Positions 1,920-54,947 of a stretch of DNA of 64,000 bases are shown in pieces; the stretch's first letter is position 1, and each line of letters starts with the position of its first letter. Source of the DNA: Tomocerus qinae (taxonomy: Eukaryota; Arthropoda; Collembola; Entomobryomorpha; Tomoceridae). Under the pieces are notes generated by a model, which worked only from the letters and a program-made list of their open reading frames with translations, did not search any database and had not been told where the DNA came from. The stretch covers positions 70,184,001 to 70,248,000 of the forward strand of contig CM034546.1 of assembly GCA_020055645.1 (NCBI GenBank), read 5' to 3'. The position numbers and the translations under genes are program-made.

Positions 1920-2045
1920 GTCATCCAATCATTATCATTTCCCACCTAGCTTTTTCATTTCCCAGAAATTTCCCATTTTCCCACTTTTTCCCACTTTTTC
2001 CCATTTCCCAGGTGTCCATCAAAAATGGGTGGGAAATGGGAATAT
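1920..2045. mobile_element. Probable terminal region of the hAT element, TGGGAAA-type subterminal repeats
   Basis: The segment upstream of the transposase start holds many copies of TTTCCCA/TTTCCCAC (minus-strand TGGGAAA). It includes an inverted pair, CCCATTTCCCA against TGGGAAATGGG, around 1999-2041. Clustered short subterminal repeats are usual near hAT ends. The exact terminus and target duplication cannot be set because the other end is outside the window. It runs directly into the coding frame of the gene starting at 2025. Confidence 0.45.
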
Positions 2046-16516: not shown

Positions 16517-18283
16517 ATGGATGTCACGGTCGAATCCGTCGATGGAATAAAACTTGATGACACCTATCCAAATGTACTTCAAGAAGATAATAAGACAAAC
16601 CCATTGCTGCTTAGTCCGGTATTTCCACTGTTTTTCAATTTTATCTTTTTCAGTTCAATTTTTTGTGATCAAGTTTCAATTTAATTACTGATTAAAATGT
16701 ACTTTTTGTTTTAGGTAATAAAATGTATATACAAATACCTAAATCTTTGTAATATTAAAAACTGTCGTCTTGCATCCTGGGAATGGTATTTGAACTCAAA
16801 GTTAATCTTTAGAGATCGGTCGAAGATAATCTTAACAAGTCAAGAATGGGGAGATCACACCATTTCGAAGTTTTTAGATTTTTCAGACTCAGCAATAAAT
16901 ATTCCTTTTGACGCATTCCAATTGAGTTATAATAATGGTCAAAGATGGAAAGTCTGCGACTTGAATGAATTTTTTGATAGTCAGCAACAAAATATAAAAG
17001 TAATAGAACTGGATCGAATGTATATGGAGGATGAAAAACAGAATATTATTGACAAGTACGATTTTACACCTTGGATCTCAAAATCCTTGATGGCAAAACC
17101 AAATACTAAATACAATACAAAACTGGCAGTATATTCAAACTATTGTAATAGTATCGAAAAGACGCAACTGTCAGTTTCACTGTCAGCTCTTGTTTCCATC
17201 AAAACTATATTGCTTACACATGTTTTGGTCAAACTTGATAATGCTGATGGAATTAAAATGAGGCCAATCGAGTTAAACCTACTTTTTGTCAAGTTTTGCT
17301 TAAATGATGTTCAATCTAATACAATTCGTATCAATGATGTTGTGGATTTCTTGAAATGCAAAAGTGTTCTGTTGGTTATTAGTGATGGAGGTACTAACAT
17401 TACATTAGATTTGGGCGGAAATGAAAAGTCAGTAAATCTTGACAAAATCACATTATGTGATTCTAGTCATGCTCGTATAACGGTGGTCAATTGGACAAAC
17501 TCAACGTGGAAAGTAAAAAAGTTAAAAATGATCGGAGTACCATTTTTAGAGAAGTGTGGAATGGAAATTGTGAAATTAGACTGTTTTTATTGCAATATTG
17601 ATTTGTCTTGTTTACCAAAGTCGATTGAAATTTTTAGTTTGATCCAAGGGATTCCAGAAACCGTGGAATGTAGTCACCCACTTTTCTTACCGAATCTGAA
17701 AAGTTTATTTTTGATCTTCGGAAAGACTGTAAAATTTTCAGTATTATCTAATTTTAAAAATTGTGCAAATATAGTTCATATTTACCTGCATGGAGTTATC
17801 CTTTGCGAAAGCGATAGATCTGAAAATATAAAACTTAATTTTGACTGGATTCCTAAAAGTGTCAGGCGACTTAAACTCAATGGAACGGAAATTGAGTGGG
17901 AAGGAGTAGGCGACGAGCTTCTACTTCTTGATCAACTTGTATTGAAAAACTCCACTTTTGAAAACGTTAAACGTGTATGCATAGACAATGTTAAAGCCAA
18001 GGAGATCATTCTAGACTTTACAGATAATCGTAATCGTGTAAATTACTCTCAATCAGAATTTATTGACCTTATTAAATATTTTGATGAAAGTTCTAAAAGA
18101 GAAGCTCAACGGATTATTGCAGGACCTTTTAAACTGAATGAAGAAAGGTACCTTGATAATTTTGTTGATAAAATTTCTGAATATTATATATTCGAAGGTC
18201 AAAGAGGGAGGGCAGTAGATGAAAAATTTTTCAACGGTTTGGTTCCACAACATGAAAAATTCATGGGTTTTTGTAGCTTTTAA
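16517..18283 (+). CDS. F-box protein with LRR-like C-terminal region, two exons
   Basis: Exon 1 is 16517-16618 (ATG, 34 codons, donor GTATTT). Exon 2 is 16715-18283, after the acceptor TTTTGTTTTAG. The join is in phase and gives about 556 residues. Residues 28-65 read NPLLLSPVIKCIYKYLNLC then NIKNCRLASWEWYL, a recognisable F-box (LP..V...I..YL.....NCRL.S..W). F-box proteins present substrates to SKP1-cullin ubiquitin ligases. The rest has irregular leucine-rich segments (LPNLKSLFLI, SVRRLKLNG, LLLLDQLVLK) that would bind the target. The plain frame in exon 2 has no ATG near its start, so the split first exon is needed. The splice sites and F-box are my reading, and the substrate is unknown. 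Confidence 0.75.
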
Positions 18284-19895: not shown

Positions 19896-22570
19896 CTATT
19901 GTCGGGCTGTTAAGAGTGCATCTACAGTGTAGTCAACCACTAGAGCCAGAAATGTGAACGTTGTGGATGTTTGGAGATAGAAGAAAGGCCCGACATCAAT
20001 TCTGATTGGTTTGCATCCTCTGCAGAAATATCTCATTGCCTTGTTCCCCTTTTCCAGCCACACATGGTTGAACTCCAATGACATTTCATTCATTTTTGCC
20101 CCTTGAGGAATCAGACCGACTGCCAAAATTAGTATTATTATCTGGAGTGCTGGCCAAAGTAAGTAAAGTGGCATCCCGCTGGATTTGTATGTTGTGAAGA
20201 TGCAGAAGTTGGCAAACACGGCTAAGGCAAACCCGAATCCATACAATGTTGGTGCTACCAGGATTGCAAAATCGTTGAGCAGAGAGTTAGTCATCTGTAG
20301 CATCATTTGAGCCCGTCGACAACAGAGAAACAAGTAGGAGATTTTCTTCCGTCGCTCAAGCATTTTCTTGGGGCTTTCATTTTCTACTTTAGCTTCTAAA
20401 TTCTTCAGAATTTTTGGTGCTGTGTGAGTGATGTAGTTCAACCAGCCTTTGGTGGTTTGTATGTACATCAATGCTGACATCATTGTTAAAATAAAGAGCC
20501 CAACAATATGATATGCTGCAAAGAATACTGCCAGACCGCCAATCAGCTTAATCCCCAGATGCAACCAGAACACCAAGGGATGAAGGGGGCTGTACCGGCT
20601 GAAGATTGCAATAATGGAAAGAATGATGACAATAAGCAATGCAATTGGCATTACCAGATAGAGCGACTTTTCAATTGTCCCCGCTTCTGGTTCTTCCACT
20701 GATCCGAACTTTCCAAAACTCTCTATGAAAAGTTAGTTATTTTAAAACCAGAAGTAATTCAAATTAATAATTTGTATATGATCATAATTCAGTTAAACTT
20801 TATCACGTTTACTCAATGCAAAGACGTATTCAGAGGGGGCCTGGGTTGTTGGAACCCCTCTAAATTCCCAGAAAATAACGATTTTTTTGTCAAACAAGGT
20901 TAAAAATCCCTAAAATAGTTCGCGCGAATGTCTTCATTTTACCAATACATTTTGCTGTGCCCTACTTGGTCAAATTTCTGGTTACGTGCCTGACTCAATG
21001 TTTCATAGTTTTGAATTAAATTGCGGTTTGTTAATTAAGAACAAGTTATCAAGTTCAACAGAATTATAGTATATTGTTACACTAATTAAAGGTTTAGAAA
21101 AAAGTCAGAAAAGAAAAGTTTAAAAAGCATAGAGATTGTATTGGATGTAAAATTTCGTACTAGTTTAGATGTATAAGTTTTTATTCAATAGGTGATTTGG
21201 CCGTAGGAAGTTTGGAATTGATTGAGCAAAATAACTTTGGTAATCGTGCATAATTATTTCTTCTTTCTATAATTCATTGTATAAATCAAGTTATTTGGGA
21301 CAAAATACATGTTTGAAAGCATTTAAAACTATAAAAAAATTATTATAATATTATTTGTATTAATAGTATCGTTCTTTAAGGGACTATAATTTGTGAGCCA
21401 GAGATACAATAGCGTCACTGAACTGAAACTCGTATTAGTGTTTTATTTTGTCCAGCTTTTTTACATTTTAGCCAGCCACGTGGATAAAATGGTCATAATG
21501 GTCAAAAATGGCTTTTTTGGCTTAAAATAAAGAATGCATAAAACATCGTTCCTTTCGAACGTCATTCGATTCTATGTGCACTATGAAATATATTATCATG
21601 AAAATTTTTTTATGAATTTATTGATTATATAGTTAGATATCAAAAGTAAAATAAGACTTGAATTCACTATTTAATATTACATTGTACCTAGACTCCCAAT
21701 ATGGATCTAGATGGTACAGTTTAAGGTTTCATCTGCGGATTGTTGGTACTTGTTTAGATGTACTTCTAATTGAATGTATGTAACAATAAATCTAAAGTGT
21801 TATTAATCTGTTAAATATGTTAAAGCTGAGCAAACAAGATTTCTACAAACTTTAGGTATAACTACCGCACACCTCGAATGTGCATTTGTAGACCGTATCA
21901 ACCCATATAACAATTAAATGTCAATTTAACGTTTATAAAAATTTATTTTAAATAATTTACACTCTTTTTTAGTTTCATTTTTTCCACTGGCCAGCAAACA
22001 TTTTAGCCAGCCACTAGAATTTGACCACTACCATTTTAGTCACTATCCGGTGTCCAGTCAAACACTGATACTAATAGATGAATATTAATAGGAGTGTTAA
22101 TCAAACATTCTAGAAAATTAAATAGTATATTCATTGTGCTTCAATTCAACGCACAATTATTTATTATAGTTATTTTTTAATATTGGTACCTTTCAGGTTG
22201 AGATCCATTGACACCAAATGCACGGAACCAATTCTCAAGTGATGTGGTTTCCAAAAAACGGTTGCTACGAAGGAATCCATGATAGAGATCAGTAAAACCG
22301 CGATGCTATGCGTGAGAACCTCAATTACTCGAATCCATTGCCAAGAGTGGATATTGAAACTATCCAAGCGAATCGGGCTGCCAGACCAAAGAAAGTGATA
22401 TTTACAATGGCCATCATACACAACCATCCTGCTTGGATCCATTTCTTTTCGCTCCATTTCACTGAGACAAGAATTCCAGATTTTATTTGTGGCTCATAAA
22501 GAGAGACGCCAAATCCATTGAATATTTTCCAGTAGAACCCAGCAGCTCTGTTTATGTGTTTAGACCACAT
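19896..22570 (-). pseudogene. Gustatory-receptor-like gene, copy B (1-base frameshift in exon 1)
   Basis: Exon 1 is 22570-22190 (donor after CTGAAAG) and exon 2 is 20722-19896 (827 nt, open). Compared with copy C, exon 1 has a 9-base in-frame insertion near 22356-22364 and lacks one base near 22329/22330, turning GFEVIEVL into GFE-stop. Downstream of the deletion the correct frame continues (VIEVLTHSIAVLLISIMDS). All other parts, including splice sites and exon 2, are intact. A single missing base could be an assembly error, so confirm before calling it dead. Its intron holds an extra ~620-bp insertion at about 21440-22070. Confidence 0.75.
21440..22068. mobile_element. Possible hAT-like MITE in the copy B intron
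   Basis: This stretch is absent from copy C. It ends in GTCCAGTCAAACACTG on the right and starts with AGTGTTTTATTTTGTCC on the left, imperfect inverses of each other. GCCAGCCAC motifs occur near both ends. A target duplication is not clear, so the class is uncertain. Confidence 0.4.
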
Positions 22571-25692: not shown

Positions 25693-28525
25693 CTATTTTC
25701 GGGTTGTTAAGAGTGCATCAACAGTGTAGTCAACCACAAGAGCCAGAAATGTGAACGTGGAGGATGTTTGGAGATAGAAGAAAGGCCCGACATCAATTCT
25801 GATTGGTTTGCATCCTCTGCAGAAACATCTCATTGCCTTGTTCCCCTTTTCCAGCCACACATGGTTGAACTCCATTGACATTTCATACAATTCTGCACCT
25901 TGGGGAATCAGACCGACAGCCAAAATTAGTATGATTATCAGCATTGTTGGCCAAAGTAAGTAAAGTGGCATCCCGCTGGATTTGTATGTTGTGACGATGC
26001 AGAAGTTGATAAACACGGCCAATGCAAACCCGAATCCATACAATGTTGGAGCTATCAGTGTTCCAAAATCGTTGAGCAGAGAGTTACTCATCTGCAGCGT
26101 CATTTGAGCCCGTCGACAACAGAGAAACAAGTAGGATATTTTCTTCTGTCGCTCAAGCATTTTCTTGGGGCTTTCATTTTCTACTTTGGTTTCCAAATTC
26201 TTCAGAATTTTTGGTGCTGTTTGAATGACGTAGTTCAACCAGCCTTTGGAGGTTTGTATGTACATCAATGCCGACATCATTATGAAAATAAAGAGACCCC
26301 CAATATGATATGCTGCAAAGCATACTGGCAGAACACCAATCAGCTTAATCCCCAGAGGCAACCAGCCCACCAATGGATGAAGGGGACTGTACCGGTTGAA
26401 GATTGCAGTAATGGAAAGAATGATGACAATGAGCAATATAACTGGCATTACCAGATATAGCGACTTTTCAATTGTGCCTGCTTCCGGTTCTTCCACTGGT
26501 CCGAACTTTCCAAAACTCTCTATACAAAGTTAGTTAGTTTTAGATTAGAAGTCATGACATGGTAAATTTGAATTTTAGCGCGTTGTCAGTTCGCTTGAAC
26601 CAAGGAGGCATTGTTAAGTACTATAATATTAATACTTTGTTGAGTCGCACATGCTGGAGGCAAATAGTAATTTGTATAATCATAATTCAGTTATACTTTG
26701 TCCATAGACTAAGTATTTATCCATAGACTAGTTTCAGGCTTAATCTTAGTATAGATACTTTATCACGGTTATTCAATGCAAAGACGTATCCCTAGGGGGG
26801 CTGGGGAAGTCGAATCCCCCTAAAATTCCCAGAAAACGATTGTTTTTGTCAAAAAGGTTAAAAAATTTCGCATTTCGCAAAATCATTTTAGCAATACATT
26901 TTGTGACCTACTTGGTCAAATTTCTGGTTTTATGTGCCTGACTCAATGTTCCATAGTTTTGAATTAAGTTGCGATTTTTTAATTAAGAACCAGCCATCAA
27001 GTTCAACAGAATTATTATTATGTTCGTCAAACACTAATTAAAGGTTTAGAAACAAGTTAGAAAAGCGGAAATAAGTTTTAAAATACTATATGTATTGTAT
27101 TAATTGTAACATTTCTTGCTAGTCAAATAGATAAGTTTTTATTCAATAGAAGTTTGGAATTAAATTAGTACTCACGAAAGAGAGCATCGCACAGTGTCCA
27201 TTTTCGTGTTCAATTTGTGACATAATTCCCAGAAATGGTTTTGTGATTAGGTGAGTTGTTTTCCTTTTAAAAGACAAAGGAATGTCTAAAACCTCGTGGT
27301 TTAAAATGATAATCGATTTCAGTTACCCCAAGTTGCATAAAATTACCAATGAAAGTGACCTTAAAAACGGTTTATATGGGATTTTCCATAAGGATTTTCA
27401 TAGAATTTCATAGAATTTTTATACTGCAAGTACATGAGACCGTTAAGATTTTTTCGCTGTAAACAATTTTGACCGAAATTTATCGGTGGGTGAGATATGT
27501 AAGCTTAAAAGTTGTTTTCTCCGAATTTTGACCTCGCCAAACTTAGCAGTGGGGCACTTTTATCAACGTTTTATTTATTGAAAAAATTCTTAAGGCTAAA
27601 TGCCGTAAGTCATTGCATTGTTGTAGCTGTCGGAATCAGGCTAACGTGTTTAAAAAATAAATGAATTTTTTTAGCATAAAACTTTATCTAGTCTCACATT
27701 ACCCTTTTGTCGCAAACTGATTAAGAAAGTGGACACTGTGCATCGGTAAAATAACGTTGGTAATCGCTTTGTGCATAATTATTTCTTTTTTCTATTATTC
27801 ACTGTATAAATCAAGTTATTTCAAACAAATGACGCGTTTGAAAGCATTAAAACATATTTAAAAAGTAATATATTATTAAATTATAGTTCCTTAAGGGACG
27901 ATATGTGTGAGCCAGAGATACAATAACGCCAGGGCCACTGAACTGAAACTCGTGTCGTGTGAAAGCACCAGTAACACGTTTGTGTGTTGACCAATAGTGT
28001 TACGAAGTCGTGTCATACTGATAGATGAATTTTAATGGAAGTGTTTATCAAACATTTAAGAAAATTAAATGATAGACTCATTGTGCTTCATTCAACTATA
28101 TAACAATAAAACGCACAATTATTTATTGGTTATTTTTTTAATCATAAGGTACCTTTTAGTTTGAGATCCATTGACACCAAATGCACGGAACCAATGCTCA
28201 AGTGATATGGTTTCCAGAAAACGGTTGCTACAAAAGAATCCATGATAGAGATCAGTAAAACCGCGATGCTATGCGTGAGAACCTCAATTACTTCGAATCC
28301 ATTGCCAAGAATGGATATCCAAGCGAATCGGGCTGCCAGACCAAACAGAGTGATATTTGAAATGGCCATCATACACAACCATCCTGCTTGGATCCATTTC
28401 TTTTCGCTCCATTTCACTGAGACAAGAATTCCAGATTTTATTTGTGGCTCGTAAAGAGAGACGCCAAATCGATTGAATAATTTCCAGTAGAGCCCAGCAG
28501 CTCTATTTATGTGTTTAGACCACAT
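25693..28525 (-). CDS. Gustatory-receptor-like seven-transmembrane protein, copy C (intact)
   Basis: Exon 1 is 28525-28153 (ATG; donor GTACC after CTAAAAG). Exon 2 is 26519-25693 (acceptor TATAG). They join G + AG in phase for 399 residues, the usual length of arthropod gustatory receptors. Hydrophobic segments lie roughly at residues 45-70, 80-108, 138-158, 165-205 (two), 260-290, 298-320 and 360-385. The last carries FFYLQTSSTFTFLALVVDYT. Such receptors are ligand-gated cation channels of chemosensory neurons with a cytoplasmic N-terminus. There is no conventional TYhhhhhQF C-terminus, so this is a divergent clade. Identification rests on length, topology and this C-terminal block; a search would settle the family. 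The long intron (28152-26520) carries a Transib-like MITE. Confidence 0.7.
27190..27740. mobile_element. Transib-like MITE with CACAGTG ends and 5-bp target duplication
   Basis: The element starts CACAGTGTCCATTTTC and ends GAAAGTGGACACTGTG; inverted similarity extends about 30 bp. It is flanked by a perfect direct repeat CATCG (27185-27189 and 27741-27745). Transib transposons have 5-bp duplications and CAC-type termini related to the RAG signal heptamer CACAGTG. The 551-bp interior has no transposase frame. Copies A and B lack it. Confidence 0.65.
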
Positions 28526-31574: not shown

Positions 31575-34211
31575 TCATTTCCCACTCGAAACCATGATAA
31601 AGACTTTTCCTTCACGGTTTAATCTCTTCATCTTTTCCGATTTGCATTTCTTGACTTGATTGCGGTTGATAAATACAGCTGCGTGAATTGGATTACATAT
31701 TTTTTTAATTTTACTCTTGTTTTCCAACAAAAATGCACAAAAGAAGACTAGCGTTCCTGCTAAAAAGACATAAAAAACGACGACTATGTTGGAATTGGAA
31801 AATTTCAGAGGTCGAAGTTCATTGTTAAGGCAATGTCTGCATTTTCTAAAATATTTTGAATCAGCTGTTTCGAAATATGTCTTCCACTTATTGTAAATTC
31901 CCGACTCGTGTATTTTGAATAACCTTCTTTTGAAATGCGTAGCTGCTAATTTAAAATACTCAGTTTCCAAATTAAGTCCCTTTGTTTCTCGAAGAATAGC
32001 ATTTTCGGGTAATCCAAAATACAACTCTCGGTTAGGATGTGGACCAGTTTTTTGGTTCCAGTTAGAATCATTGACAAACCATTGAAGGTTGCTCTCTTTA
32101 TCAATGTAGACGGATTTTTGACACTGAGAAATGAATTTTTGTGGGGTAGTAGATGGAAAATTTGTATTTATTATATGTCTTTCAAAGAGTGTTTTATTTA
32201 GCTTTGCCAACCGAGTCAATTCTTTCGTAGAATTATTTTGCGTTGCACGTGATAATATATAACTTAGTTGCGTTTCCACTTCTTCGGGAAATATCAACCA
32301 TTCTAACAAATCTGAAAAATTGAAAATGTTTTTAATTGTCCTCAAGTGCATTGCAAACTTTTGCATAATATTCATATCATTACTTTCCTTTGATGTATCA
32401 TTTGTCTTCCCGTCGCATCTTTGAAAATCATTCAAATGCCAATTCTTTTTGTCCAATCTCTTAAAGCATTCCAATTGATTACTCATCGAATTTATATTAT
32501 TATCGGATGCTACGAAAGTACCATTTGGACTATGATATATAGTAAGGCCTGTAGACAAAAGATCCTTGTGATCAATAAGATCATAGATAGATTTAATTCT
32601 CTGTACAGGAGGTTCACTGATTAAATCTGTAATAACGATGCCCTTGTACCCATTTGTTATCACAATGAACATTAATAGGAAAGGACCAATTACGAGTTTC
32701 AGCCAAAGCAGTTTCTCATATTTTCCGGGCAAGGAGTAACTCACTTCTAAAATATATGCATAGAATAATAGAGGAAATATCGAATCCAAGTCTCCCTTTA
32801 AATAGAGGACAATCCAAACAAAAGCAATAACCGAAAAGACACTGATCAATAGGCAAATCCATGTTCCCAAATCAAATGGACTTGTAAACGCATGAAAATT
32901 TAGAGCATTTTGTCCCAAAATACTGCAAGAAATAAAATTGTAGCCTTCTTCTGATGTTGGAATAAAGAGTGATAACTCCGGAACATAAATAGCATTTAGG
33001 TTTTGATTACTAACAACCTTAAAATTTCCAACTATTGTAGTTTTTAATAAATTATGTTTATAAACCTCGATATCTTTGTAATTGTTTGAACTTTCTAGTA
33101 TTAAACGTATTGGCTCGTGATGATTTGAGAAACCAAATAAGTCCATCATCGACTTTAGCATTTTGTATGAATTGCAGCTACTGATAGTAGCATTTGGTAT
33201 ATTGTTTAAAAATATTGATCCCATGACAAATTCTATTTGCGTAGGTTTCTTTACTTCAATATGTCGTACTGTTTGTTGGCAAGTATGTCGATTGTTTAAC
33301 AAGTCTCTATTTCTAGTAATACCACTTATAATATACACAATAAAATGTTTTTTCATCTCAATCATTCTCACCGCAGATTCGATTCCGATATCTCTAATTA
33401 CATTTTTTAAAGCATTAGTGCTGCTTTTAATGTTTAAAGAGTGTTTAAAGTTTAATGTGTCACAGTGATAACCTATAATTGAATATTCACAATATACATA
33501 ATAAATAATCCCTTTAGTCAGGTAATGAAAATAGAATCTTTTCTCTCGGAAATCTATTGTTGTATAAACATAACGCTTAGACATCAGGTTAGAGAAGTGT
33601 GGCATCAAACTTTTAACAGCAAGCATATCCCATTCCATTTCATATTTTTCTTTAAGCAAAATATGCACTGATGAATAATCCTCGGAGTTGTATAAACTGC
33701 TTTCTGGGTAGAACATATTAACATCACTAGGAGATGGAAACGGCAGAACGAGGTTTCTTGACATGTAGTAAGTGAAAAATACTTGTCTCTCATTACTAGG
33801 ATTTAAATTAATGACAATATGTGACAGACAGTTGAAGCGAGAGATGAAGTATGGGGCAGAGAATACTCTCTTCTTAACCAAAGGGATTCTATCATTACAA
33901 TCTCCAATTTTGCATTTTGCAAATCTTTTCGAAAATTCTTCTTCTAGGATGTCAAATCTTGTCACTGCGTGCGGAGTTTGAATATTGGGCAACTCTTCCA
34001 AATACTGGGGAATTGATACAAATTCATTTTCTCCCTTGTAAAACACTATGTTAATATAGCAATCACTTTCAGCAATTGTTAGTTGTTCTAGATTTTTGCA
34101 GTCAATAATTTCAAAAATCAAATGGAAAAACGCAATAATTATAAATGTGTTCCATTTTTTCAGTAAAAACCCCATTTCGATTATTATTATTATAGTACTA
34201 AATGTTGACAA
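31575..34211 (-). CDS. Divergent ionotropic receptor (iGluR-related), single exon
   Basis: The 878-residue frame starts at ATG 34211; an in-frame Met at residue 13 just before the hydrophobic leader (MGFLLKKWNTFIII) may be the true start. A long extracellular N-terminal region follows. A first membrane helix lies near 447-470 (LGTWICLLISVFSVIAFVW), a pore segment near 475-495, and a helix near 500-520 leading into NGYKGIVITDLISEPP, a typical ionotropic-receptor junction. The second ligand-binding lobe and a last helix near 805-830 (IVVVFYVFLAGTLVFFCAFL) precede a short basic tail. The intronless structure is common among divergent chemosensory receptors. These act as cation channels in sensory dendrites with co-receptors. 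The ligand is unknown. Confidence 0.85.
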   Translation of the reverse strand: MSTFSTIIIIIEMGFLLKKWNTFIIIAFFHLIFEIIDCKNLEQLTIAESDCYINIVFYKGENEFVSIPQYLEELPNIQTPHAVTRFDILEEEFSKRFAKCKIGDCNDRIPLVKKRVFSAPYFISRFNCLSHIVINLNPSNERQVFFTYYMSRNLVLPFPSPSDVNMFYPESSLYNSEDYSSVHILLKEKYEMEWDMLAVKSLMPHFSNLMSKRYVYTTIDFREKRFYFHYLTKGIIYYVYCEYSIIGYHCDTLNFKHSLNIKSSTNALKNVIRDIGIESAVRMIEMKKHFIVYIISGITRNRDLLNNRHTCQQTVRHIEVKKPTQIEFVMGSIFLNNIPNATISSCNSYKMLKSMMDLFGFSNHHEPIRLILESSNNYKDIEVYKHNLLKTTIVGNFKVVSNQNLNAIYVPELSLFIPTSEEGYNFISCSILGQNALNFHAFTSPFDLGTWICLLISVFSVIAFVWIVLYLKGDLDSIFPLLFYAYILEVSYSLPGKYEKLLWLKLVIGPFLLMFIVITNGYKGIVITDLISEPPVQRIKSIYDLIDHKDLLSTGLTIYHSPNGTFVASDNNINSMSNQLECFKRLDKKNWHLNDFQRCDGKTNDTSKESNDMNIMQKFAMHLRTIKNIFNFSDLLEWLIFPEEVETQLSYILSRATQNNSTKELTRLAKLNKTLFERHIINTNFPSTTPQKFISQCQKSVYIDKESNLQWFVNDSNWNQKTGPHPNRELYFGLPENAILRETKGLNLETEYFKLAATHFKRRLFKIHESGIYNKWKTYFETADSKYFRKCRHCLNNELRPLKFSNSNIVVVFYVFLAGTLVFFCAFLLENKSKIKKICNPIHAAVFINRNQVKKCKSEKMKRLNREGKVFIMVSSGK

Positions 34212-36300
34212 TGATATATTTTAATTTGCACTAGATATTTACAATGACTTGTTTGTTTTATAACTCAAATCTGAATTTGAGATGTGATAAATTTATATAA
34301 TCATACAGAGTAAATGAGAATTCATCAAAAGCACGCGGGTACGTAGGTACGTCTAAGGCCGCAGTCACGAGTAGGGCAACGGGGTCCTTCTGTGTATAAA
34401 TCTACCTTAAGATTAATGATACCTATTCCTATTATTTCGTATTGAAATAGATATCCAGCAGTGGTTTATATTTAGCTTTCTTATGAACTGAATACTCAAT
34501 TTCTAGGAAAAAGTCAATGATAGCGATTGATGAACTGTATATGTGAAATCATTTGACACTTAGAAATTAAGAATGCATTAGCGTGTAAATTAGTAATTTC
34601 CGAAATAACGCAACCAGCAACAACGAACAGGGTAATGACGACGTATAATGATGAATGTATTTAATTAGAGACTAATTCATACGTAGCCTAATACAACAAC
34701 TCTACATACACACAACACCTCGGTACTTATTATTGTTAACTTTACTTTGATCAACATTATATTGTCCCATAATTTAGTAAATTGAATGGGGAATTTTGCA
34801 AAATTTAATGGTATCCAATTTCTTCGCACCCGACACCTTATAAAAAAGCTGCATGCCACAGAATGCTTGCATAATGACAATGGAATACAAATCGTGTTGT
34901 AACTGATCGTAAAATTCCGTAGAAAATAAGCTTGGAACCAAACTTTTTTAAATCTTGGATAGTAACAAAACAAACCACTACAATGTATTTATTAATCTAC
35001 AAATTGGTTAGAAGCAAATTAATTAACTTTTTAATTCACATAATTGTTCCTATTAAAATAAAGACAAAATAGTTAACTAAGCCGTGTGCGCTGTGTTTCA
35101 AAACGATTTGTTTTGGCTCTTTTTCAAAAGGGTTCCAAAATAAGCAACGTATGTGACAAGAATTTTTGTCAATACACAGATATATCTGTGATGTCAGAGT
35201 ACAGAAGGACAAGAATGTACCTTATAAGGCTGGTTTTTTACATATTTATATATTTAGGCTATATATATATATATATTATATTTAGGCTTATAATTATAAG
35301 GCTGGTTTTTTTTAAGTTCAAAGGACAAAATTTTTTTCTTTCAAAGTAGTAAAAAGGCGTTTCAAATAGTTTTATGGTAGCACTGGTAAAATTACTAATT
35401 TGCAGCCTTATTTGTTACACTTACTAAAAAGTTGCTTTTCGGTGCCGGGGTAGACGTCATTTTAAAAATCGGACAAGTGGAAGAGCTGTCAAAGGCTCCC
35501 AATTACATTATCTGGCTTCTGGTAGTTAATTATTCAGTATGGGTTTGCATGTCTCCCATTTGAGACATAAGAGTAAACATGAAAATAAGATATTTAATTA
35601 TTGACATATTTTATTAGGCTAAGTACTGAGTCATACGTAGCCTAATAGCAAGAATTATTACGGCCAACTCTCTTGCTTGACTTTATTTTAACACTAAAAT
35701 GCTATCTAAGGCTACCATAAATTATTTGCTAGATAGCAAAAATACTATATTATAAGTTTACCATAAATCAGCTTGCTATTTGCTAGTTATATAGCTAAAT
35801 AGCTACATTTCTAATATTACAAGCTCCACACAAATAAATTGCTTAAAATTTACATTGCTACTTAACAGGTAGTAACGCAAATAATACGTATGCTAAACTG
35901 CTAAACATTTCATTCTACATTCCAATCGTAGGCTTGAATAAATATACCAACCTACCTGCACATATTACGTAACGTAAATTCTCCTCTCCCATGTGTAACT
36001 ACGCAAGGGCTGACTGTACTTTTTTATAATAATTTGCACACCTAGTTATTGTTTTTGGAAAAGTAATTCGTGGATTTCATGCATTTTAAATAGTTAAATG
36101 TTGATATTCACTTGAATTTTTAAAGATTTGAAATTTTATTTCAGCTTGAAAAATTACTAATGTTAGAATCAGATTGTTAAATAATTCTTCTTCCACCAAC
36201 TCAAAAACTTCAAACTCAAAAAAATAAGAACGGCAAATCTGATTCAGGCAATTATTTTTCCTATTTATCAGTGCGTATAAACGGCAAAGTATTAAAAGCT
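34212..36300. other. Intergenic, no gene seen
   Basis: AT-rich sequence with scattered stops in all frames and a short AT dinucleotide run near 35262-35280. A few short frames exist but none has recognisable domains, splice signals or homologues within the window. Confidence 0.5.
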
Positions 36301-40900: not shown

Positions 40901-42474
40901 GTTTGGTGATTGGTTCACATGTGCCAATATATATTCCATCTGAAACAAAAATAGATAAAAAATAAATCACATCCATAATAATACGGATTAGCGAATAATA
41001 ATTGTATCACAATTTACCTGCACCAACGTAGCTTATAGTTATAGCACCAGACGTAGATTCAGAAAATCGTGTGACAAATGTCCCTGCAGGACATCCTCTG
41101 AGCTTACTTTCCGCGTTAGATCTGCCCACAAAGCCTAGCATGCATTGTTGTAGCTGCTTGTCGGTCCAAATACCTTTCAGACACGTTTTGACTAAATCCA
41201 GTATGCCGTAAAACCAAGAGTAAAAGCTGAACTTTAACAATTTCCCGTTATACTTCATATTATTTTTCCAAAAGGGCTTCTCAAGTATCTGTACTTCATG
41301 TTCTTCTTTTTGTCTGTCATTATAAAAATTTATACACCTCAATATAAACATAGGCAAAGGTAATAATGGTATAGAGTAGGGAATCAATAATTTGCGAACC
41401 TTCCAATCTGTTCTTTTGGTACTTCGTGCAATGCGATTAGTTTTTCTTTCAGATAATCAACCTGATCGGAACTTAATGCCCTGCCAGTCTCCAATTTAAA
41501 TTGCTTCTCCAGCTCTCTTAATACCAGAGGTAGAGGAACGCTTTCAAGACAATCTCTGGTAGCACGATTAGGAAGTTTTGCTACCAAATGGTTGTCCCAA
41601 AAGTTTTTGCCAGCAGTCTTGGGATCTTGACTACAATGGCTGGTAATAACAAATGGCCGCGAAGTAACTCCACCGCTGAAAAACTTGGTTTTATTGGAAT
41701 GCAACTTGAAATAAAAATACTTTTTAGCTTCCATTACAAGTTTTCCATTGTCACGCTCACGCGGCTCACGATTGACAGTTGGAAATTTACAACCATTGAA
41801 TCGAGCTTGATATACTTCGCTTTTCTCGTCCTTTGTAAGTGGAATTTCCATAATTAAAGCAAATTTAATGGGCTCTTTTAACTTTCCGCTCAAATCACGT
41901 ATGGATAAGTTGCTATTGGTACACACAAAATTCTGGTTACTGTAAACTCATATTTCATGCAAAATATGACATAATAATATATGGTAAAAAATATCTCTGA
42001 GATCATTGTTTACTCTATTTACAGACAAGGGTGCTACATAGTTCAAAACCTGGAGATGCTTCCTGCTTACAACAAAACTTGAAAATTTTACTTGAATATA
42101 TTGCAATTTCTTGAAATTGCAAGAATAAAACTACATACAGTACTCTACAAGGAGATATAATTTTCCATAGCAAGTCGAAACAAATAATTTATAAAATCAT
42201 ATTATAATGACATTCGGCAAAACCTTTTCATCAAAGCTTTATCCTCCTCCTCAGAATCAACGAGTCGTCCATCCCGCAATAATGTTTTAGGATTTTCGTC
42301 CAGTTCATACAGTCTAACTTGCACTTCCAATGACGAAGTGTTTTGCAACACTTTGTGAAGGCAAAGGTGACGAACTATCATTTCACTAATCTTTGCATTT
42401 TTTGATAACTTTTCCTTTGGTTGCTTTTCTACTACCAATGTTGAGTTCAGAAGCTGCTGTAATAAATTTGCAAC
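37919..42474 (-). CDS. STAT: STAT transcription factor, C-terminal ten exons (N-terminal exons missing)
   Basis: Exons by my reading: 42474-42224, 41939-41400, 41313-41018, 40939-40693, 39798-39706, 39565-39422, 39236-39099, 38640-38479, 38405-38283 and a tentative last 37967-37919. All junctions are GT-AG and in phase (680 residues). Order: end of coiled coil and start of the DNA-binding domain (VVEKQPKEKLSKNAKISEM), DNA-binding core (SRPFVITSHCSQDPKTAGKN), linker, SH2 domain with the phosphotyrosine-binding Arg in GTFVTRFSES (visible residue 346), then KYVYQG...EEAFEKY and the JAK-target tyrosine in LGYDPI (visible residue 437). The tail is long and rich in Ser, Asn, Gln and Pro (transactivation). 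On JAK phosphorylation, STATs dimerise through SH2-pTyr contacts and enter the nucleus. Layout is nearest STAT5/6 and fly Stat92E. Confidence 0.85.
37968..38200. repeat. AT-rich microsatellite (TATATAA / AATAA type)
   Basis: About 230 bp of imperfect TATA, ATATAA and AATAAAT repeats. It lies in the last putative intron of the STAT gene. The long tyrosine/isoleucine-rich frames it opens on the minus strand are low-complexity artefacts. Confidence 0.85.
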
Positions 42475-42484
42475 CTGAAAGAAG

Positions 42485-43680
42485 AAAATTTCGGTATATA
42501 CTTTTTGATGGGAAAAACGCGGTTTTTAACAAAAATTAAATAGCTAAGTATTTATATATGTAAAATCTAGACTCCGTCAGTAAAGACATCCATAAGCCCC
42601 CGTCGCGTCGCTAAAGAATGCTGAACACAATTAAATTCGACATTTGTATACAGGGTGGTCGGAAATGAACTAGGACTTTTGACTTCCACCTTAAATAATT
42701 CTGGAACAGGTTATGATATTACAACAAGAATACCAGCATCTTAAAGAGCATGCGTTTCTTAGTCAGATTCGAAATTTTGAGTCCCATACTAGGACTGCAA
42801 CTGCATAAGATAGGGTGCGAAACAAATAAAAAGCGAAAAATGGCTTTCTGTCCTTTTAGTNNNNNNNNNNNNNNNNNNNNNNNNNNNNNNNNNNNNNNNN
42901 NNNNNNNNNNNNNNNNNNNNNNNNNNNNNNNNNNNNNNNNNNNNNNNNNNNNNNNNNNNNTGCGTAAGGATTTAAAAGATAAAGTCTGCTATCGTTTTTC
43001 TAATGGATGATTTTTAGCTTGCCCCAAATTTCTATGCACAATGATTTTTATTACAATAGGTAGGTAATGTCATGTTCATATAACATTAGACTATCAAAAA
43101 GTGTTACGTGTAGGCATAGCAAGGAAAGGTTGAATATTATTTTTTAAGCCATTAATTTCTTACTAAAGATGTTAATCGTAAAATGCATTGTTTTTATTAT
43201 TATACACGTGCATATAAGCAGGAAATTATGTTTGAAATTGTTGTTATACTGAATTATGATGCATTAAAGAGTTAAGACATAAGACAGTGTAGTTTTATAT
43301 ATACAGTTATAGTAAAATCTTCATTTTAATGAGTAGCCAACTTAATTTTCCTGTAAAATTGGTATTTTATAAGTTTAGAAGCTATCAAATAGTATTAAAC
43401 AAAACTTCCAACTATTTCCAGATGTAGATTTATCTTTAGTGTTATATCTCCAATAGTAGTTTCAGATCTAGCATTTTAATGTTCCCAGAAGTTATAATTT
43501 ATTTTGTATCTAGTACCTAGTATAATATTATTATGTTGCTTACTAAGCAGAACCGGTCTTACTGATACATGTTAAAACCATTCGTGCAATTCTCAGTTCC
43601 ACACAAGTTCCAGACAGACAATTCGTACATCATTTGTACCAAGCAGAGATTTTCAATGTTTCAAATAGTTTTTAAAGCGG
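42485..43680. other. Assembly gap region between STAT and the flavoprotein gene
   Basis: It contains exactly 100 N (42861-42960), a conventional placeholder for unknown length. No STAT N-terminal exon is readable on either side. ACAGGGTGGTCGGAAATG at about 42650 resembles a transposon end; a repeat could explain why assembly broke here. The right flank (42961-43680) shows no exon. Confidence 0.6.
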
Positions 43681-43684
43681 TAAC

Positions 43685-46544
43685 ATGGCACTACTCATAA
43701 TCACAGCTGTAGCAACTTTAATACTTCTTCCAGCGATATTTACTAAATTATCGATATGGCCATTTGGACCGTCCATAAATCCGTAAGTTTTTATTCTACA
43801 GGTTGCATTATTTATATTGAAAGTTAATTTGATTGATTTCTGAGGTTTTTTGTACTATAGATTACCACATTTGAGTTACACGTCTTACCTTCAAAATCCT
43901 GTTTGTCTCCCAAGTGAAAATATTCGTTATCCTAAAACCCAAGAAGATGTTGTTGCTATTGTTAATGAAGCTATATCTAGAAAAACTACTGTTAAAGCTT
44001 TTGGACATCGACATTCTATGACTGATATTATCTGCACTGATGGAATTCCAGTGGATATGAGAGGAATTCAGGGAATCTTTTACAATGCACAAGATGAGAC
44101 GGCGACTGTTGGGGCTGGAGTTTATCTTTATGACTTTGCAACTTACTTGAGAGAGCGAGGAAGAGCGTTAAGAACTGTTCCAGGATTTGGAAATATTACT
44201 ATTGGCGGAGCTGTGGGAACTGGAGCACATGGATCATCTATTAGATACAATTCTTCTATTTCGGAACAAGTGGTTGGACTCACAATTGTCGATGGACGGG
44301 GACAATTGAGAAAAATTGACAAAGAAGAAGACCTAAAAGCATTCCGTATCCATTTAGGTCTTCTAGGAATAGTTCTAGATTTAACTCTGGCCACAGTGCC
44401 ATTATATAAAGTGCTAGCTCATAACTACGTTGTCAGTGAAGATATTTTAACAGATGGAAGAATCATTGACATTGCAAAAAATACTGATCAAGCCTCAGTT
44501 TATTGGTTTCCATCACTCAAACAAGTAAGAAACTAAAATAATCTAAATTTTCGTGTGTAGAAGTTAAGATTTCAATTATTACAGTCTACTCCCAAAAGTA
44601 TTCAGAAAACCGACAAAATTGAGAATATCCATAAACATTTATGCAAGGGTTTTCTGAAGTATGTTTCTATAAATGGATATTGGATACAGAAAAGTTAGTA
44701 TTCGGAATATATATTTTTTGCTTCAGAAAATCCAATAATGGACCAAGATTTAATTGTAATCGACGAAACAAAACTATAAGCATACCGTAATACAATTCCA
44801 CGGTGCAAGTAGGGTATTTTTTTCTGAGGATTATTTTCAATGGCTTCTTCCCGTGTATGCTTTTTATATCCTAGAATGTTTATTAATTTATGAAAACGTT
44901 TTGAACGCAGGTTGTAATTGCAAACTGGACGATAGTGGATGTGAGTACTCAAGGAGATGCATGGAGCAACGACCATGTACCACCAACTTCAGAAACATTT
45001 AACATTCTTGGGGTTTCTGGAGCGGAAGTGTTGCAAGAAATGAAATCCTTGTCGGGATTAAATTTAATGGAATTATACTGTCAACAAGTTTTAATTAGAA
45101 CAGTTCCGGATTTCGTTCCAATTTACACTGAAGACGGAGTTCATGTCAAAAATCCTGCTATAGGATATTACGATTTAATGTTTGCTCCGATTTGTAAAGA
45201 TAGTGGATATTATCAATGTTTTTGGTTCCACGGACCAAACCACAACATTACATTGATAGACAATGAATTTTCACTCCCTCTTGATCTACTTCCAAGATTC
45301 ATTATCACAATTAAAGACATTCTTTACAAAAGCCCTGCAGCTTTTCCATTATTTGGGATGCTGATGAGATTTTCAAAATCTTCAAAGACGTATATGTCAT
45401 CCAGCTATGGTCGTGACTCCTGCCACTTTGAATTCTACACGATGAAAAGGAAAAATGCATACGAAAATCCCAGCGTGAGCTTGGCTGCTTATCAAACCAT
45501 AACACAATCTCTGGTACAAAAAATATTATTTGAGAAGTTAGCAAAATGGAATATCGTGATATATCTATGTTATAACTTAATGAAAGACAAGCGAAAACTT
45601 TTACAGCGAGGAAAGAGATAGAGATGATGTACCGTAATTAAACAAGATAAATCGACCAATTTGTTGAAACTATAAGAGCGTTTAGTATTCTTATGGAGAT
45701 AACAATAAATTTAGTAAAATATAAGTTTTCAACTAAGTATTGCTAATCGAAACGTTTACGAAATATTTTTTTTTAATCAAAGAGCAATTGGACGAAATTA
45801 ACTTTCAAGATTTTCAATCGTCCGGAATAACTTTCTCCCCAATTCCTAAAAACATCGACATTAATGAATAAGCTTGTCTATATTAATTGTTTAATTAAAA
45901 ACATTGAGTGGTTGGAAAACTGAAACTTCTCTAATTACAACGTTTATAAGTTTCAGATTCAACGTTTTTCCAAGATCAGAGCATCTTCCATAATAGCTTT
46001 ATGCAGCACAGATTTTTCATCTTATCCTAATTTTTAAATTGAATATTTTTTTGAATAATTTCAGACTAGGGATTATAATGGACGATCTCATTGGGGGAAA
46101 TCCGGACTGCATTATCACAGTAGCGAAATGATTTCCATGAAGTTAGATCCTCAAGCCCGTTCTTCTTTTACAGCTAAAATGAAAGAGTATGACCCGGAAG
46201 GCATTTTCATGAACAGTTTTGGCCATCGATTGAATGGAGACGGATTCAAAATTGATACAGACCCTGCCACAACTCATTGTGCCCTTTTAGAGAACTGTGT
46301 CTGCTCTAAAAATGACGATTGTGCCAATGGCCAGATCTGCACGCACGTTGATGGATACCCGAACTACAGAGTATGTGATAACGTTAACTATTCCAATGCT
46401 CCAATCCGAAATTTACGTCCACATAATATTCCCAACTCCAACTTCAATAGTCTAGAGCAACTGCTATGCTCATCTGAATTGGGTTCCACAATTACCTTTA
46501 ATAGTACAATCAATTGCAACAATCCTAGAATCAGTAGGAAATAA
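43685..46544 (+). CDS. L-gulonolactone oxidase-like FAD-linked oxidase with plant-type cysteine-rich tail
   Basis: Exons: 43685-43782, 43861-44524, 44911-45513 and 46065-46544, all GT-AG and in phase, 614 residues. Residues 2-22 form a signal peptide or anchor. An FAD-binding PCMH domain spans about 50-225, with FGHRHSMTDIICTDG (His84 is the expected covalent flavin ligand) and IGGAVGTGAHGSS. The C-terminal sugar-lactone oxidase domain includes SSSYGRDSCHFEFYT, GRSHWGKSGL (464-467 HWGK) and DPEGIFMN. The final ~90 residues add six cysteines (527, 533, 535, 541, 547, 559) in HCALLENCVCSKNDDC and YRVC. Family enzymes oxidise L-gulono- or related aldonolactones with O2 in ascorbate synthesis. 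Vertebrate enzymes (~440 aa) lack this tail, whereas plant paralogues (~590 aa) have one. Substrate is unproven. Confidence 0.8.
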
Positions 46545-47200
46545 ACAATAATAAAATTTGTTTTTATAGTTTTTGTACCGTAATTTGTAATAATGTTTAA
46601 GGAAACTGCTTTGACTTTTATGTTACATAATTAGTCAACCTATATTAAGAGCATTTAAAGTTGAACTGATGTATAAAAATTAACTTCAGGACCTCTTAAG
46701 CTTTAATGTGATTTTGAACCTTATAATGTATTGGATATTGGATAACATACTGTTTGTTAATAACATATTGTGTTGAATACAGTCAATTTGTTATATGGCA
46801 ATAAAAAACAATTTATCAAACATTAATGGAAAAATGCTTCCCCAGCTAAATGTATTATTAGCTTGAACGAATAAAATTAGCACAATATTACTTCTGGACT
46901 TTACCAATATATTAATAATTGACATTTTAATTCAATAAAGGCTGATATATTATTTTGTATATTATTTTATATTATTTTTGATATAGAAATATTATTTTTA
47001 GTACTATGTACCATTACATGAGTTTATCTAGGCTTTCTCCTTGCGTTGGATCCATATTGTACAATGTTTGTGCCATTATATTCATTACATTAGATATCAA
47101 TTACATTAGACCTAAAATGACAAGACCTTATATTTCAACACGATACACTGATAATGATAACCATGCTCATTAGTTTGTGTTAAATTACCTACAATGGCAT
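46545..47200. other. Intergenic, no gene seen
   Basis: AT-rich spacer between the oxidase stop, with AATAAA-like signals within about 15 bp, and the NHL promoter region. No coding signal. Confidence 0.5.
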
Positions 47201-47425: not shown

Positions 47426-47670
47426 CCTCCGAGTCCGTTCGGTCTTCATAGCAGTTTTTGCTCTTCCACAAACTACAACTCTTCTCCTAAAAGACTCTTG
47501 ACCTTCGTTTTACCTTTTCCTTCAACTTCGTGTCCTTGTTCCAGATTTGTTTTGAATATTTCAGTAAGTTAATTTCAATTTTTTCAAGTTTCAATGAAAA
47601 TTTGTTTTGTTTTTCAGGTTTCATTGAATTAGTTTACATTTGTTTATGAATATTTTTTGCATATTTTCAG

Positions 47671-49226
47671 ATGGAGACAACTGTTGAGCGGCCGTCCAGT
47701 CTGGAAGCTGGGATGAACTTCTTTCTGCCATCGGATCTGTTTGATGACGGACTGGATGCTGCTGGATACTCTTCACTTGCTTTGGCCACACCAGAGGAGG
47801 AGGAGTATGGAGCGACGAGGCTTGCGGATCTTGTGAGGGCATTCGCGTTGACTGAAGAGGAAGTGTGTGGGAGTCTGGAGCTGAAGATGGGGGATTTGGA
47901 GCATTTGAAAGACGAGGCTTGCGAATTCTGGATGGATGGAAGGAGCTTGGAGAAGATGGAGCTGAAGACCTTGGAGTGCTACGTGAGGAGCCCTTCCAGT
48001 GCCCGGTATCCTGTCCAGCTGGAACTCAAGTCCTCTCGGGTTTCGTGTGTCTATCGACCTCTGGAGTGCGGACCCCATACGGCTTTCCTCGTCATTCGGG
48101 ACCGCATCCAGTCTTCGCTCTCCTTCCACGTCTCCAGAAACTACTCGCTCCAACTTTATCCTGTCGTCTCTCTCCATATCCAGCTCGACCAATCCACCGG
48201 ACAACACCTCACACGCAAACCCTGGGGAATCGCCACCAGCAACAACACTGAACAGGTACTTAAATACAAGCCCTTCCTTTTTTCATAACTTGTGGCTATA
48301 AAATATAATTGAAACAATTAATTTTTATTATAGACAATTTTTCCGTGTTTTTACAAGCATTTTTAAAAGATATAATAATAATATTTGGTATTTTTCTGTT
48401 TGTTGATTTTAGCTGGGGATCTGTGATCGGGAGAAGCACGAGGTTCTTATTTTCCGTCCTGATGGAGAATTGGACTTTCGGTTCGGATCGTACGGAGCTG
48501 GTGATGGGGAGTTCAAACGTCCGATTGCCATGGCGTTTGACTGTGCTGGAGATCGTCTTGTTGTAGTGGACAAGGACAACCATCGGATTCAGATCTTCAC
48601 TTCCACCGGACAATTCATTTCTTCCTTCATCCTTCGGGAGTCGTGGACGTCGTCCGGGCCAATTCAAATATCCGTGGGATGTCGCCGTTTCTAAAGATGG
48701 ACAACTGATCGTCGTCGCCGACTCCAGAAACGCCCGCATCCAGTTCTTCGACTCTACCGGCCGATACATCAGTCAACACCGCGGACAGTTGCAGTACCCG
48801 AGAGGAGTCGCCTTCGACAATACAGGTAACTTAATTATTCTTTTGACTTGCTATTCTTTTCTTAAATAATTGAGTCTAATGGGTGGGAACTGTTTTTTGT
48901 TGATTGTAGGGGGCACTGTGTTCGTGACGGACTTCAATCTGCATTGCATGTTGAAGGTGGAGGTGAGGAGCGGGAGGAGCCAAGTTCTGGTGGACAACTC
49001 TCTTCTTCGGCGCCCATCTGGACTCGACGTGGATATCTGTGGCAACGTCATCGTCTGCGATTCCAGGAACCACTCGCTCAAAGTCTTCAACCCGTCCTCC
49101 GGAAAACTTGTCCAGACCATCCACTCCGTTGGCAACAAAGACCTGGACCTCCCTTTGGATATTTCCGTCATGCGTGCTGGATATCTCGCCGTTCTCGACC
49201 TCAACGGACGAGTCAGGATCTTCTAG
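47671..49226 (+). pseudogene. TRIM71/wech-type filamin-NHL protein without RING/B-box, copy 1 (7-base frameshift)
   Basis: Exons: 47671-48255, 48413-48825 and 48910-49226, GT-AG, phase-compatible. The N-terminal ~95 residues are acidic with no RING or B-box, followed by a filamin-like domain (about 105-185) and NHL repeats: [57 protein letters not shown]. The pattern is that of TRIM71/LIN-41/wech, RNA-binding beta-propellers that repress mRNAs. In exon 2 the frame is broken by seven extra bases (ATCCTTC, 48629-48635, a near-duplicate of the preceding TTCCTTC). Literal translation stops at 48692 after ~288 residues, leaving less than half the propeller. Beyond the lesion the frame is clean. 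Either a young pseudogene or a truncated product. Confidence 0.7.
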
Positions 49227-53139: not shown

Positions 53140-53386
53140 CCTCCAAGTCTCTTCAGCCTTCATAGCAGTTTTTGCTCTTCCACAAGCTACAGCTCTCCTC
53201 CTAAAAGACTCTTGACCTTCGTTTAACCTTTTCCTTCAACTTGGTGTCCTTGTTCCAGACTTGTCCAGAATATTTCAGTAAGTTGATTTCAATTGTCAAT
53301 TTCAATAATACATAATTTGTTTTGTTTTTCAGGTTTTCATTGAAATAGATTACATTTGTTTATGAATCTTTATTGTATATTTTCAG

Positions 53387-54947
53387 ATGGAGACAATTGT
53401 TGAGCTGCCGTGCAGTCTGGAAGCTGAGATGAATTTCTTTCTGCCATCGGATCTTTTTAGCGATGGACAGGATGCTGCTGGATACTCTTCACTTGCCTTG
53501 GCCACACCAGAGGAGGAGAAGGAGGAGTATGGAGCGACGAGGCTTGCGGATCTTGTGCAGGCATTCACGTTGACTGAAGAGGAAGTGTGTGGGAGTGTGG
53601 AGCTGAAGATGGGGGATGTGGAGCATTTGAAAGACGAGGCTTGCGAATTCTGGATGGATGGAAGGAGCTTGGAGAAGATGGAGCTGAAGACCTTGGAGTG
53701 CTACGTGAGGAGCCCTTCCAGTGCCCGGTATCCTGTCCAGCTGGAACTCAAGTCCTCTCGGGTTTCGTGTGTCTATCGACCTCTGGAGTGCGGACCCCAT
53801 ACGGCTTTCCTCGTCATTCGGGACCGCATCCAGTCTTCGCTCTCCTTCCACGTCTCCAGAAACTACTCGCTCCAACTTTATCCTGTCGTCTCTCTCCATA
53901 TCCAGCTCGACCAATCCACCGGACAACACCTCACACGCAAACCCTGGGGAATCGCCACCAGCAACAACACTGAACAGGTACTTAAATACAAGCCCTTCCT
54001 TTTTTCATAACTTGTGGCTATAAAATATAATTGAAACAATTAATTTTTATTATAGACAATTTTTCCGTGTTTTTACAAGCATTTTTAAAAGATATAATAA
54101 TAATATTTGGTATTTTTCTGTTTGTTGATTTTAGCTGGGGATGTGTGATCGGGAGAAGCCCGAGGTTCTTATTTTCCGTCCTGATGGAGAATTGGACTTT
54201 CGGTTCGGATCGTACGGAGCTGGTGATGGGAGTTCAAACGTCCGATTGCCATGGCGTTTGACTGTGCTGGAGATCGTCTTGTTGTAGTGGACAAGGACAA
54301 CCATCGGATTCAGATCTTCACTTCCACCGGACAATTCATTTCTTCCTTCATCCTTCGGGAGTCGTGGACGTCGTCCGGGCCAATTCAAATATCCGTGGGA
54401 TGTCGCCGTTTCTAAAGATGGACAACTGATCGTCGTCGCCGACTCCAGAAACGCCCGCATCCAGTTCTTCGACTCTACCGGCCGATACATCAGTCAACAC
54501 CGCGGACAGTTGCAGTACCCGAGAGGAGTCGCCTTCGACAATACAGGTAACTTAATTATTCTTTTGACTTGCTATTCTTTTCTTAAATAATTGAGTCTAA
54601 TGGGTGGGAACTGTTTTTTGTTGATTGTAGGGGGCACTGTGTTCGTGACGGACTTCAATCTGCATTGCATGTTGAAGGTGGAGGTGAGGAGCGGGAGGAG
54701 CCAAGTTCTGGTGGACAACTCTCTTCTTCGGCGCCCATCTGGACTCGACGTGGATATCTGTGGCAACGTCATCGTCTGCGATTCCAGGAACCACTCGCTC
54801 AAAGTCTTCAACCCGTCCTCCGGAAAACTTGTCCAGACCATCCACTCCGTTGGCAACAAACACCTGGACCTCCCTTTGGATATTTCCGTCATGCGTGCTG
54901 GATATCTCGCCCTGCTCGACCTCAACGGACGAGTCAGGATCTTCTAG
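53387..54947 (+). pseudogene. Filamin-NHL protein, copy 2 (two frameshifts)
   Basis: Exons: 53387-53977, 54135-54546 and 54631-54947. The first ~75 residues differ at about a dozen places and have two extra residues (EEEKEEY). From about 53620 the exons and both introns are almost identical to copy 1. It carries the same seven-base insertion (54350-54356) and in addition lacks one G in the GGGG run at 54228-54230, so the frame is lost earlier (stop about 54287). The net change after both lesions is in frame again, but the stop lies between them. The single-G loss could be a sequencing error; the shared insertion cannot. Not a functional NHL propeller as assembled. Confidence 0.75.

Follow-up and report, generated by a model that had tools for sequence, protein, structure and literature searches.

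The flavin of GULO and ALO is held through a histidyl-FAD link (PMC11099136). In GalDH, roles have been described for Arg388, Lys456 and a gatekeeper position (PMC11099136), where oxidases are reported to carry Gly or Pro (PMC11505616). Plant GULLOs are predicted to be secretory proteins (PMC6077269). Among animals, a survey of vitamin C genes retained proteins with an HWAK motif and put those with HWGK aside as other genes; it reported GULO to be absent from Hexapoda and Crustacea, and HWGK-type sequences to be present in some protostomes and non-bilaterians (PMC6582580). Because of this sorting, families like the one described here can easily escape notice in arthropods from which GULO is said to be absent.

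Among the open-licence papers covered, none names gulonolactone oxidase together with springtails, or L-gulonolactone oxidase together with Folsomia candida, and the passages from those that name it with Collembola do not describe this family; public databases may hold relatives under GULO-like names. The family offers a clear test of whether arthropods reported without GULO possess another lactone or sugar oxidase. It also allows one to ask whether plant GULLOs, whose role is disputed, belong to a wider clade of secreted oxidases rather than acting mainly in ascorbate synthesis.

Gene structure and protein features

The window, by which we mean the whole 64,000-nucleotide stretch of DNA that was analysed, holds a four-exon gene on the forward strand at 43685-46544, with its ATG at 43685 and its stop codon ending at 46544. 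The exons join in frame through three introns, all GT-AG as confirmed here, into 614 codons and a stop. The GTGAHGSS and ICTDG motifs, the length of 614 residues and the six-cysteine tail named in the original prediction are all present in this spliced model, the features of which are as follows.

43685-43782, forward strand: exon 1, N-terminal hydrophobic segment (putative signal peptide or anchor), residues 1-33; GT-AG
43861-44524, forward strand: exon 2, FAD-binding domain; FAD_binding_4 at residues 54-185 (hmmscan)
44012-44014, forward strand: His84, position of the covalent FAD histidine in GULO/ALO
44180-44182, forward strand: Pro140, gatekeeper position (equivalent to Ala113 of GalDH)
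44911-45513, forward strand: exon 3, cap/ALO domain with an extra Cys349-Cys357 pair
45361-45369, forward strand: Leu405-Met406-Arg407, the E-x-R active-site pair with Arg retained and Glu lost
46065-46544, forward strand: exon 4, end of the ALO domain, HWGK, tail and stop codon
46089-46100, forward strand: HWGK, residues 464-467; Lys467 is equivalent to Lys456 of GalDH
46278-46376, forward strand: six-cysteine tail, GULLO2-like_3rd (PF22906), with C527, 533, 535, 541, 547 and 559
46550-46555, forward strand: AATAAA, possible polyadenylation signal, read directly from the sequence

Mapping the predicted protein back with a spliced aligner of our own writing returned identical junctions, which is a consistency check and not an independent one. 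The gene does not include the 100-N gap at 42861-42960.

The protein matched the Pfam families FAD_binding_4 (E-value 2.5e-25), ALO (3.4e-16) and GULLO2-like_3rd (2.1e-5). The last of these, PF22906, scored 24.5 bits in the protein scan against a cut-off of 27, and 29.5 bits at the same tail in the genome scan, where five loci exceeded the cut-off and none of 14 controls was positive; at an E-value of 0.001, two of eight family members matched. The reference sequences of plant GULLO, rat GULO and yeast ALO used in all comparisons are hand-entered versions, not database copies. Against their proper models they score 1002, 738 and 774 bits, and Table 1 of PMC9602106 gives matching marker residues (mouse for rat). 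All six tail cysteines of the window protein align with those of the reference plant GULLO. ICTDG failed as a mark of plant over vertebrate enzymes, the use first made of it, since ACTD stands in its position in the reference rat GULO. Residues 1-19 are strongly hydrophobic (Kyte-Doolittle mean 2.64, 19-residue window), a second, weaker hydrophobic stretch (1.86) lies near residue 196, and there are six N-glycosylation sequons; the hydrophobic N-terminus and the sequons could be those of a secreted or ER protein.

Several other open frames were observed in the window. On the reverse strand, three similar frames of 278 aa with hydrophobic stretches (9158-9991, 19899-20732 and 25696-26529) extend across 17 kb; a scan of 25696-26529 gave no Pfam family above cut-off. 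Two similar forward-strand frames of 522-528 aa (1950-3533 and 16715-18280) have 'FRDRSKIILTS' in common, and neither has a Pfam match. The similar frames at 47650-48285 and 53366-54007 (212-214 aa) each have a long antisense open frame, and the scanned member, 53366-54007, had no Pfam match. An 881-aa reverse-strand frame at 31578-34220 is perhaps ionotropic-receptor-like, given a weak ligand-gated ion channel match (E-value 0.044, below cut-off), and a STAT linker domain was found on the reverse strand at 41387-41947 (27.2 bits, cut-off 27).

A family of related loci

A protein search of the source genome (334 Mb, 115 contigs) returned 69 matching stretches, which were grouped into 22 related loci. 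Two further matches fell outside these, a fragment of 53 residues at C1:37.354 Mb and a distant one of 25.8 bits at C1:19.69 Mb. The window gene is intact, and it is one of 22 related loci rather than a single gene. Family copies are located on contigs C1, C2, C5 and C74, and seven loci, the window gene among them, are clustered at C1:69.94-70.32 Mb.

We modelled 21 of the 22 loci (the window gene and 20 others), excluding the fragments at 70.32 Mb. Seventeen of the 21 share one architecture and have no stop before the tail ends, and these entered the trees. Left out were the C1:79.24 copy, which has five stops; L012 (51.41 Mb), which like the 70.32-Mb copies is a fragment; L022, which is probably damaged, its gene model demanding odd introns; and L016, which runs off contig C74. 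L016 differs from L021 by a dN of 0.001 and a dS of 0.021, and this near-identity suggests that it may be the L021 locus assembled twice, in which case the total would be 21 loci.

The introns of the window gene fall after residues 33 (phase 2), 254 (phase 0) and 455 (phase 0), and paralogues have introns at the same positions. Eight further members of group A have introns after 33 (32 in one model), 254 and 455, the four members of group B have one at 211 instead of 254, and the 455 intron is also present in the four divergent copies. Seven members aligned to the window protein showed 37-63% identity. Nei-Gojobori dN/dS was 0.05-0.21 in 11 of 13 member pairs, or 0.08-0.21 without the L021-L016 pair, and dS was saturated in the remaining two. 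The family is under purifying selection, and the dN/dS values together with the domains of the window gene show that the gene is not a chance reading frame. The levels of identity, the intron position common to deep paralogues and the saturated dS in two of 13 pairs indicate that the family is old in this lineage; for the last two of these reasons, any horizontal transfer must also be old.

HWGK was present in 16 of the 17 family rows, including that of the window gene, and HWAK in one (L053, C1:106.70 Mb). This member rules out HWGK/HWAK as a sharp divider, so that the motif alone is no GULO marker. The cuticle domain PF00379, which we take to be an arthropod marker, had 114 matches in the source genome and was found in none of 14 control genomes, in agreement with the arthropod host of the original prediction.

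Relatives in bacteria, plasmids and viruses

A first scan of prokaryote genome contigs, with family patterns alone, gave 71 pattern matches, none of which was confirmed. Adding the reference plant GULLO in a second scan yielded at least 506 relatives, of which the best 80 were kept. Among 83 bacterial frames (these 80 and three from plasmids), six have the six-cysteine tail: three from Vibrio, one each from Microbulbifer and Hahella, and one from a MAG that, to judge by its isolate name, is from Lake Pavin. Core and tail of these proteins are co-linear with those of the family. The tail domain scored 39.7-47.4 bits in three of the four tail-bearer genomes tested and 22.8 bits, below the cut-off, in the MAG. 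The tail that had been called plant-type does match plant GULLO, and its occurrence in some bacteria means that it is not plant-specific.

The plasmid search returned 80 records, all below 60% identity, with the 15 listed at 23-32%, and viral scans gave no confirmed relatives. A recent bacterial transfer was rejected, as family patterns alone produced no confirmed relatives and the plasmid matches were distant.

Of 369 Gammaproteobacteria genomes drawn, the sole one positive for the tail domain was the genome at the centre of the draw, so its distribution in this class is patchy. It is not rare everywhere in bacteria, since 9 of the 58 genomes from the MAG's phylum had it, 8 of them above cut-off. 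One genome of that phylum had up to three matches, and some of the tail-bearing GULLO-like proteins found there (L075, L151-L160) retain the FAD histidine and have Pro at the gatekeeper. In two small samples from other groups, with one genome in common, none of 4 and none of 5 genomes had the domain, counts that do not establish absence as no control was positive.

Phylogenetic placement and diagnostic residues

The window protein scored 141.3 bits with TIGR01677 (pln_FAD_oxido; cut-off 383.1), with one match spanning 23-559 of 560, and 134.2 bits with TIGR01678 (cut-off 396.8); a bacterial NCBIfam model gave 141 bits, again below cut-off. Among the plant, bacterial and GULO/ALO NCBIfam models, the best stretch reached the end of the protein, tail included, only for the plant model.

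For phylogenetic analysis, alignment columns after HWGK+42 were deleted, so that the tail cannot drive the split. Tree 1 had 53 rows, consisting of 17 family members, six tail-bearing bacteria, plant, rat, yeast and 27 of 77 tail-less bacteria. Tree 2 had 49 rows, with 17 family members, 13 tail-bearing bacteria, plant, rat, yeast and 16 tail-less bacteria; compared to tree 1, 11 tail-less rows and the near-copy L071 were dropped and eight of 11 new frames were added, while L150, L155 and L159 were excluded as copies or near-copies of rows already present. In tree 1 the family, the tail-bearing bacteria and the plant fell on one side (100/100). Tree 2 recovered the same tail clade with all 13 tail-bearing bacteria (100/100), opposite rat GULO, yeast ALO and the tail-less bacteria; within it the family formed one clade (100/100) on its own stem of 0.64 changes per column, and tail-bearing bacteria grouped with the plant (98/94). 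Plant and yeast sit on long branches, and the composition of several bacterial rows is odd.

AU tests rejected grouping the family with rat (p = 5e-7 in tree 1 and 1.5e-8 in tree 2), the family with rat and yeast (p = 2.8e-4) and the plant with rat (p = 3e-7). They did not reject the family with the plant (p = 0.376 and 0.334) or with the tail-bearing bacteria (p = 0.099 and 0.279), and joining the tail clade and rat GULO into one clade was borderline (p = 0.04). A placement within ordinary animal GULO, which had been named as a refuting outcome, is thus rejected. The suggestion of a plant-GulLO layout rather than that of the vertebrate enzyme is borne out by the tail alignment, the 100/100 split, the rejection of family with rat and the residue marks below. 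Judged by sequence, the family is plant-type and apart from vertebrate GULO, with a tail that is not specific to plants; among the sequences compared here, a plant GULLO and a few bacterial proteins are nearest to it.

Across the 49 rows of tree 2, equivalents of GalDH Arg388 and Lys456 were present without exception. The FAD histidine was found in all 17 family members, plant, rat, yeast and all 16 tail-less bacteria, and in two of 13 tail-bearing bacteria. At the gatekeeper, Pro occurs in all 17 family members, the plant and six of 13 tail-bearing bacteria, the other seven of which have Thr, Gln or Ala; rat and yeast have Gly, as do 15 of the 16 tail-less bacteria. All 31 tail-clade rows (17 of 17 in the family) lack the Glu of E-x-R, which rat and yeast retain together with 15 of the 16 tail-less bacteria, and Arabidopsis NP_182197.1 is also listed with LMR at this site (PMC9602106, Table 1). 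The Cys349-Cys357 pair is present in 31 of 31 tail-clade rows, with a gap in rat, yeast and all 16 tail-less bacteria. The lost Glu and the extra Cys pair are marks of the tail clade that are independent of the tail, found here and not taken from published definitions.

Origin of the family

An ancestor of the lineage may have acquired the gene from a bacterium or from a plant or alga, with introns and duplications following later. Tail-bearing relatives exist in both bacteria and plants, and the AU tests reject neither family with plant nor family with tail-bearing bacteria. Against this, the family stands as a single clade (100/100) with a separate stem, 0.64 changes per column long, and is 24-31% identical to the tail-bearing and plant rows compared, and we consider such a transfer plausible but somewhat short of probable. 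We take just as seriously, though again without quite calling it probable, the view that a family dating back to early eukaryotes or beyond was inherited vertically, was lost or overlooked in most animals and was gained separately by some bacteria. This would fit the patchy tail in Gammaproteobacteria (1 of 369, the centre genome) and the HWGK-type sequences that the animal survey noted in some protostomes and non-bilaterians but classed as other genes (PMC6582580). Those sequences may, however, fall outside the tail clade, and with 9 positive genomes among 58 in one bacterial phylum, the domain is not rare everywhere in bacteria. That the gene is a contaminant or a lone pseudogene is extremely improbable: some other copies are damaged (the C1:79.24 copy with its five stops, L012 and the 70.32-Mb fragments), but spliceosomal introns, copies on C1, C2, C5 and C74, an arthropod genome, purifying selection and an intact frame speak against it, and for the window copy it is refuted.

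As a tentative overall picture, which may well not hold as a whole, there would be a separate animal-side lineage of six-cysteine GULLOs, old in the arthropod line and derived from bacteria or an early eukaryote, with some twenty secreted flavin oxidases that, in an animal without GULO, act on a substrate that is not a vitamin C precursor and release extracellular H2O2.

Function

On balance, we lean towards reading the intact window gene as one of an expanded arthropod family of FAD oxidoreductases that are rich in disulphides and either secreted or located in the ER lumen, and whose substrate is probably something other than the aldonolactone of vitamin C synthesis. The hydrophobic N-terminus would direct the protein into the secretory pathway, the cysteines would form disulphides and FAD would be bound through His84. 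By analogy with the superfamily, Arg407 and Lys467 would stabilise a sugar or lactone alkoxide during hydride transfer to FAD, and oxygen would then reoxidise the FAD to yield H2O2. We infer a secreted, H2O2-making sugar or lactone oxidase as the preferred function. So large a family suggests a role that faces the environment, for which digestion, antimicrobial H2O2 and cuticle or secretion chemistry are candidates. The GULLO of Mucuna nectar is reported to be secreted, to make no ascorbate and to be a weak oxidase on glucose, fructose and lactones with weak H2O2 production (PMC6077269). Counting against an FAD oxidase, this same protein is reported to be flavin-free (PMC6077269), AtGULLO5 has the gatekeeper proline yet is reported to be without oxidase activity (PMC11505616), and the FAD histidine is kept in just two of 13 rows of tail-bearing bacteria.

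An ALO-domain search of the genome gave eight hits, all in family members, so no classical GULO was seen, although a GULO with many short exons could escape a search that went exon by exon and scored the best candidates. With TIGR01678, the GULO/ALO profile, 20 of 23 genome hits were family loci or fragments; the other three (33.5-43.7 bits) may be other FAD proteins, and this profile was weakly positive in 11 of 14 control prokaryotes, above cut-off in none. If the family replaced a lost animal GULO, some members would oxidise L-gulono- or L-galactono-1,4-lactone to ascorbate, which we regard as unlikely. It would agree with the retained equivalents of Arg388, Lys456 and the FAD histidine, with these searches, in which a classical GULO did not appear, with the reported absence of GULO from Hexapoda and Crustacea (PMC6582580) and with 29 hits to the regucalcin-type SGL domain, though this domain was also positive in 8 of 14 control prokaryotes and the hits do not single out regucalcin itself. 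Overexpression of Arabidopsis GulLO2, 3 and 5 in tobacco cells is reported to raise conversion of L-gulonolactone to ascorbate (PMC11066809); these proteins come from the same group of plant enzymes, so the reaction may remain open to enzymes that have lost the Glu. Nevertheless, this Glu is absent from 17 of 17 members, one would not normally expect some 20 copies and an N-terminus of the secretion type in the final step of vitamin C synthesis, and the nectar relative is reported without ascorbate as a product (PMC6077269). The lost Glu and this part of the plant evidence disfavour ascorbate as the main product, which weakens the initial suggestion that the animal may make it; we prefer the secreted oxidase reading.

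Comparison with known systems

The best solved-structure match was GalDH/GLDH (8qnr), through the FAD domain (E-value 1.9e-13 with the protein and 1e-25 with the family profile). Unlike the family, GalDH is a dehydrogenase with Ala113 and noncovalent FAD (PMC11099136), and an equivalent of the tail is missing from the printed 8qnr alignments. Animal GULO shares with the family the superfamily, the FAD histidine and the active-site Arg and Lys. It differs, in the reference rat sequence, by HWAK, E-V-R and a Gly gatekeeper, and PF22906 was not found in it. The GULO reported as horizontally acquired in the tardigrades Hypsibius and Ramazzottius (PMC5531438) is likewise a GULO-named gene of reported non-vertical origin in an ecdysozoan, and may or may not belong to the tail clade.

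Tail-bearing bacteria resemble the family in lacking the Glu and having the Cys pair in 13 of 13 rows; unlike the family, 11 of 13 lack the FAD histidine. Identity to the tail-bearing and plant rows compared, four of them bacterial, is 24-31%. With plant GULLO (Arabidopsis GULLO1-7), identity is about 26% to the reference sequence, the context of the FAD histidine is GHRHS in the family versus TTRYSHS in the plant, and the family is expanded in the arthropod. Both have FAD_binding_4, ALO and the six-cysteine tail, HWGK, L-M-R at the E-x-R site, a proline gatekeeper and the extra Cys pair.
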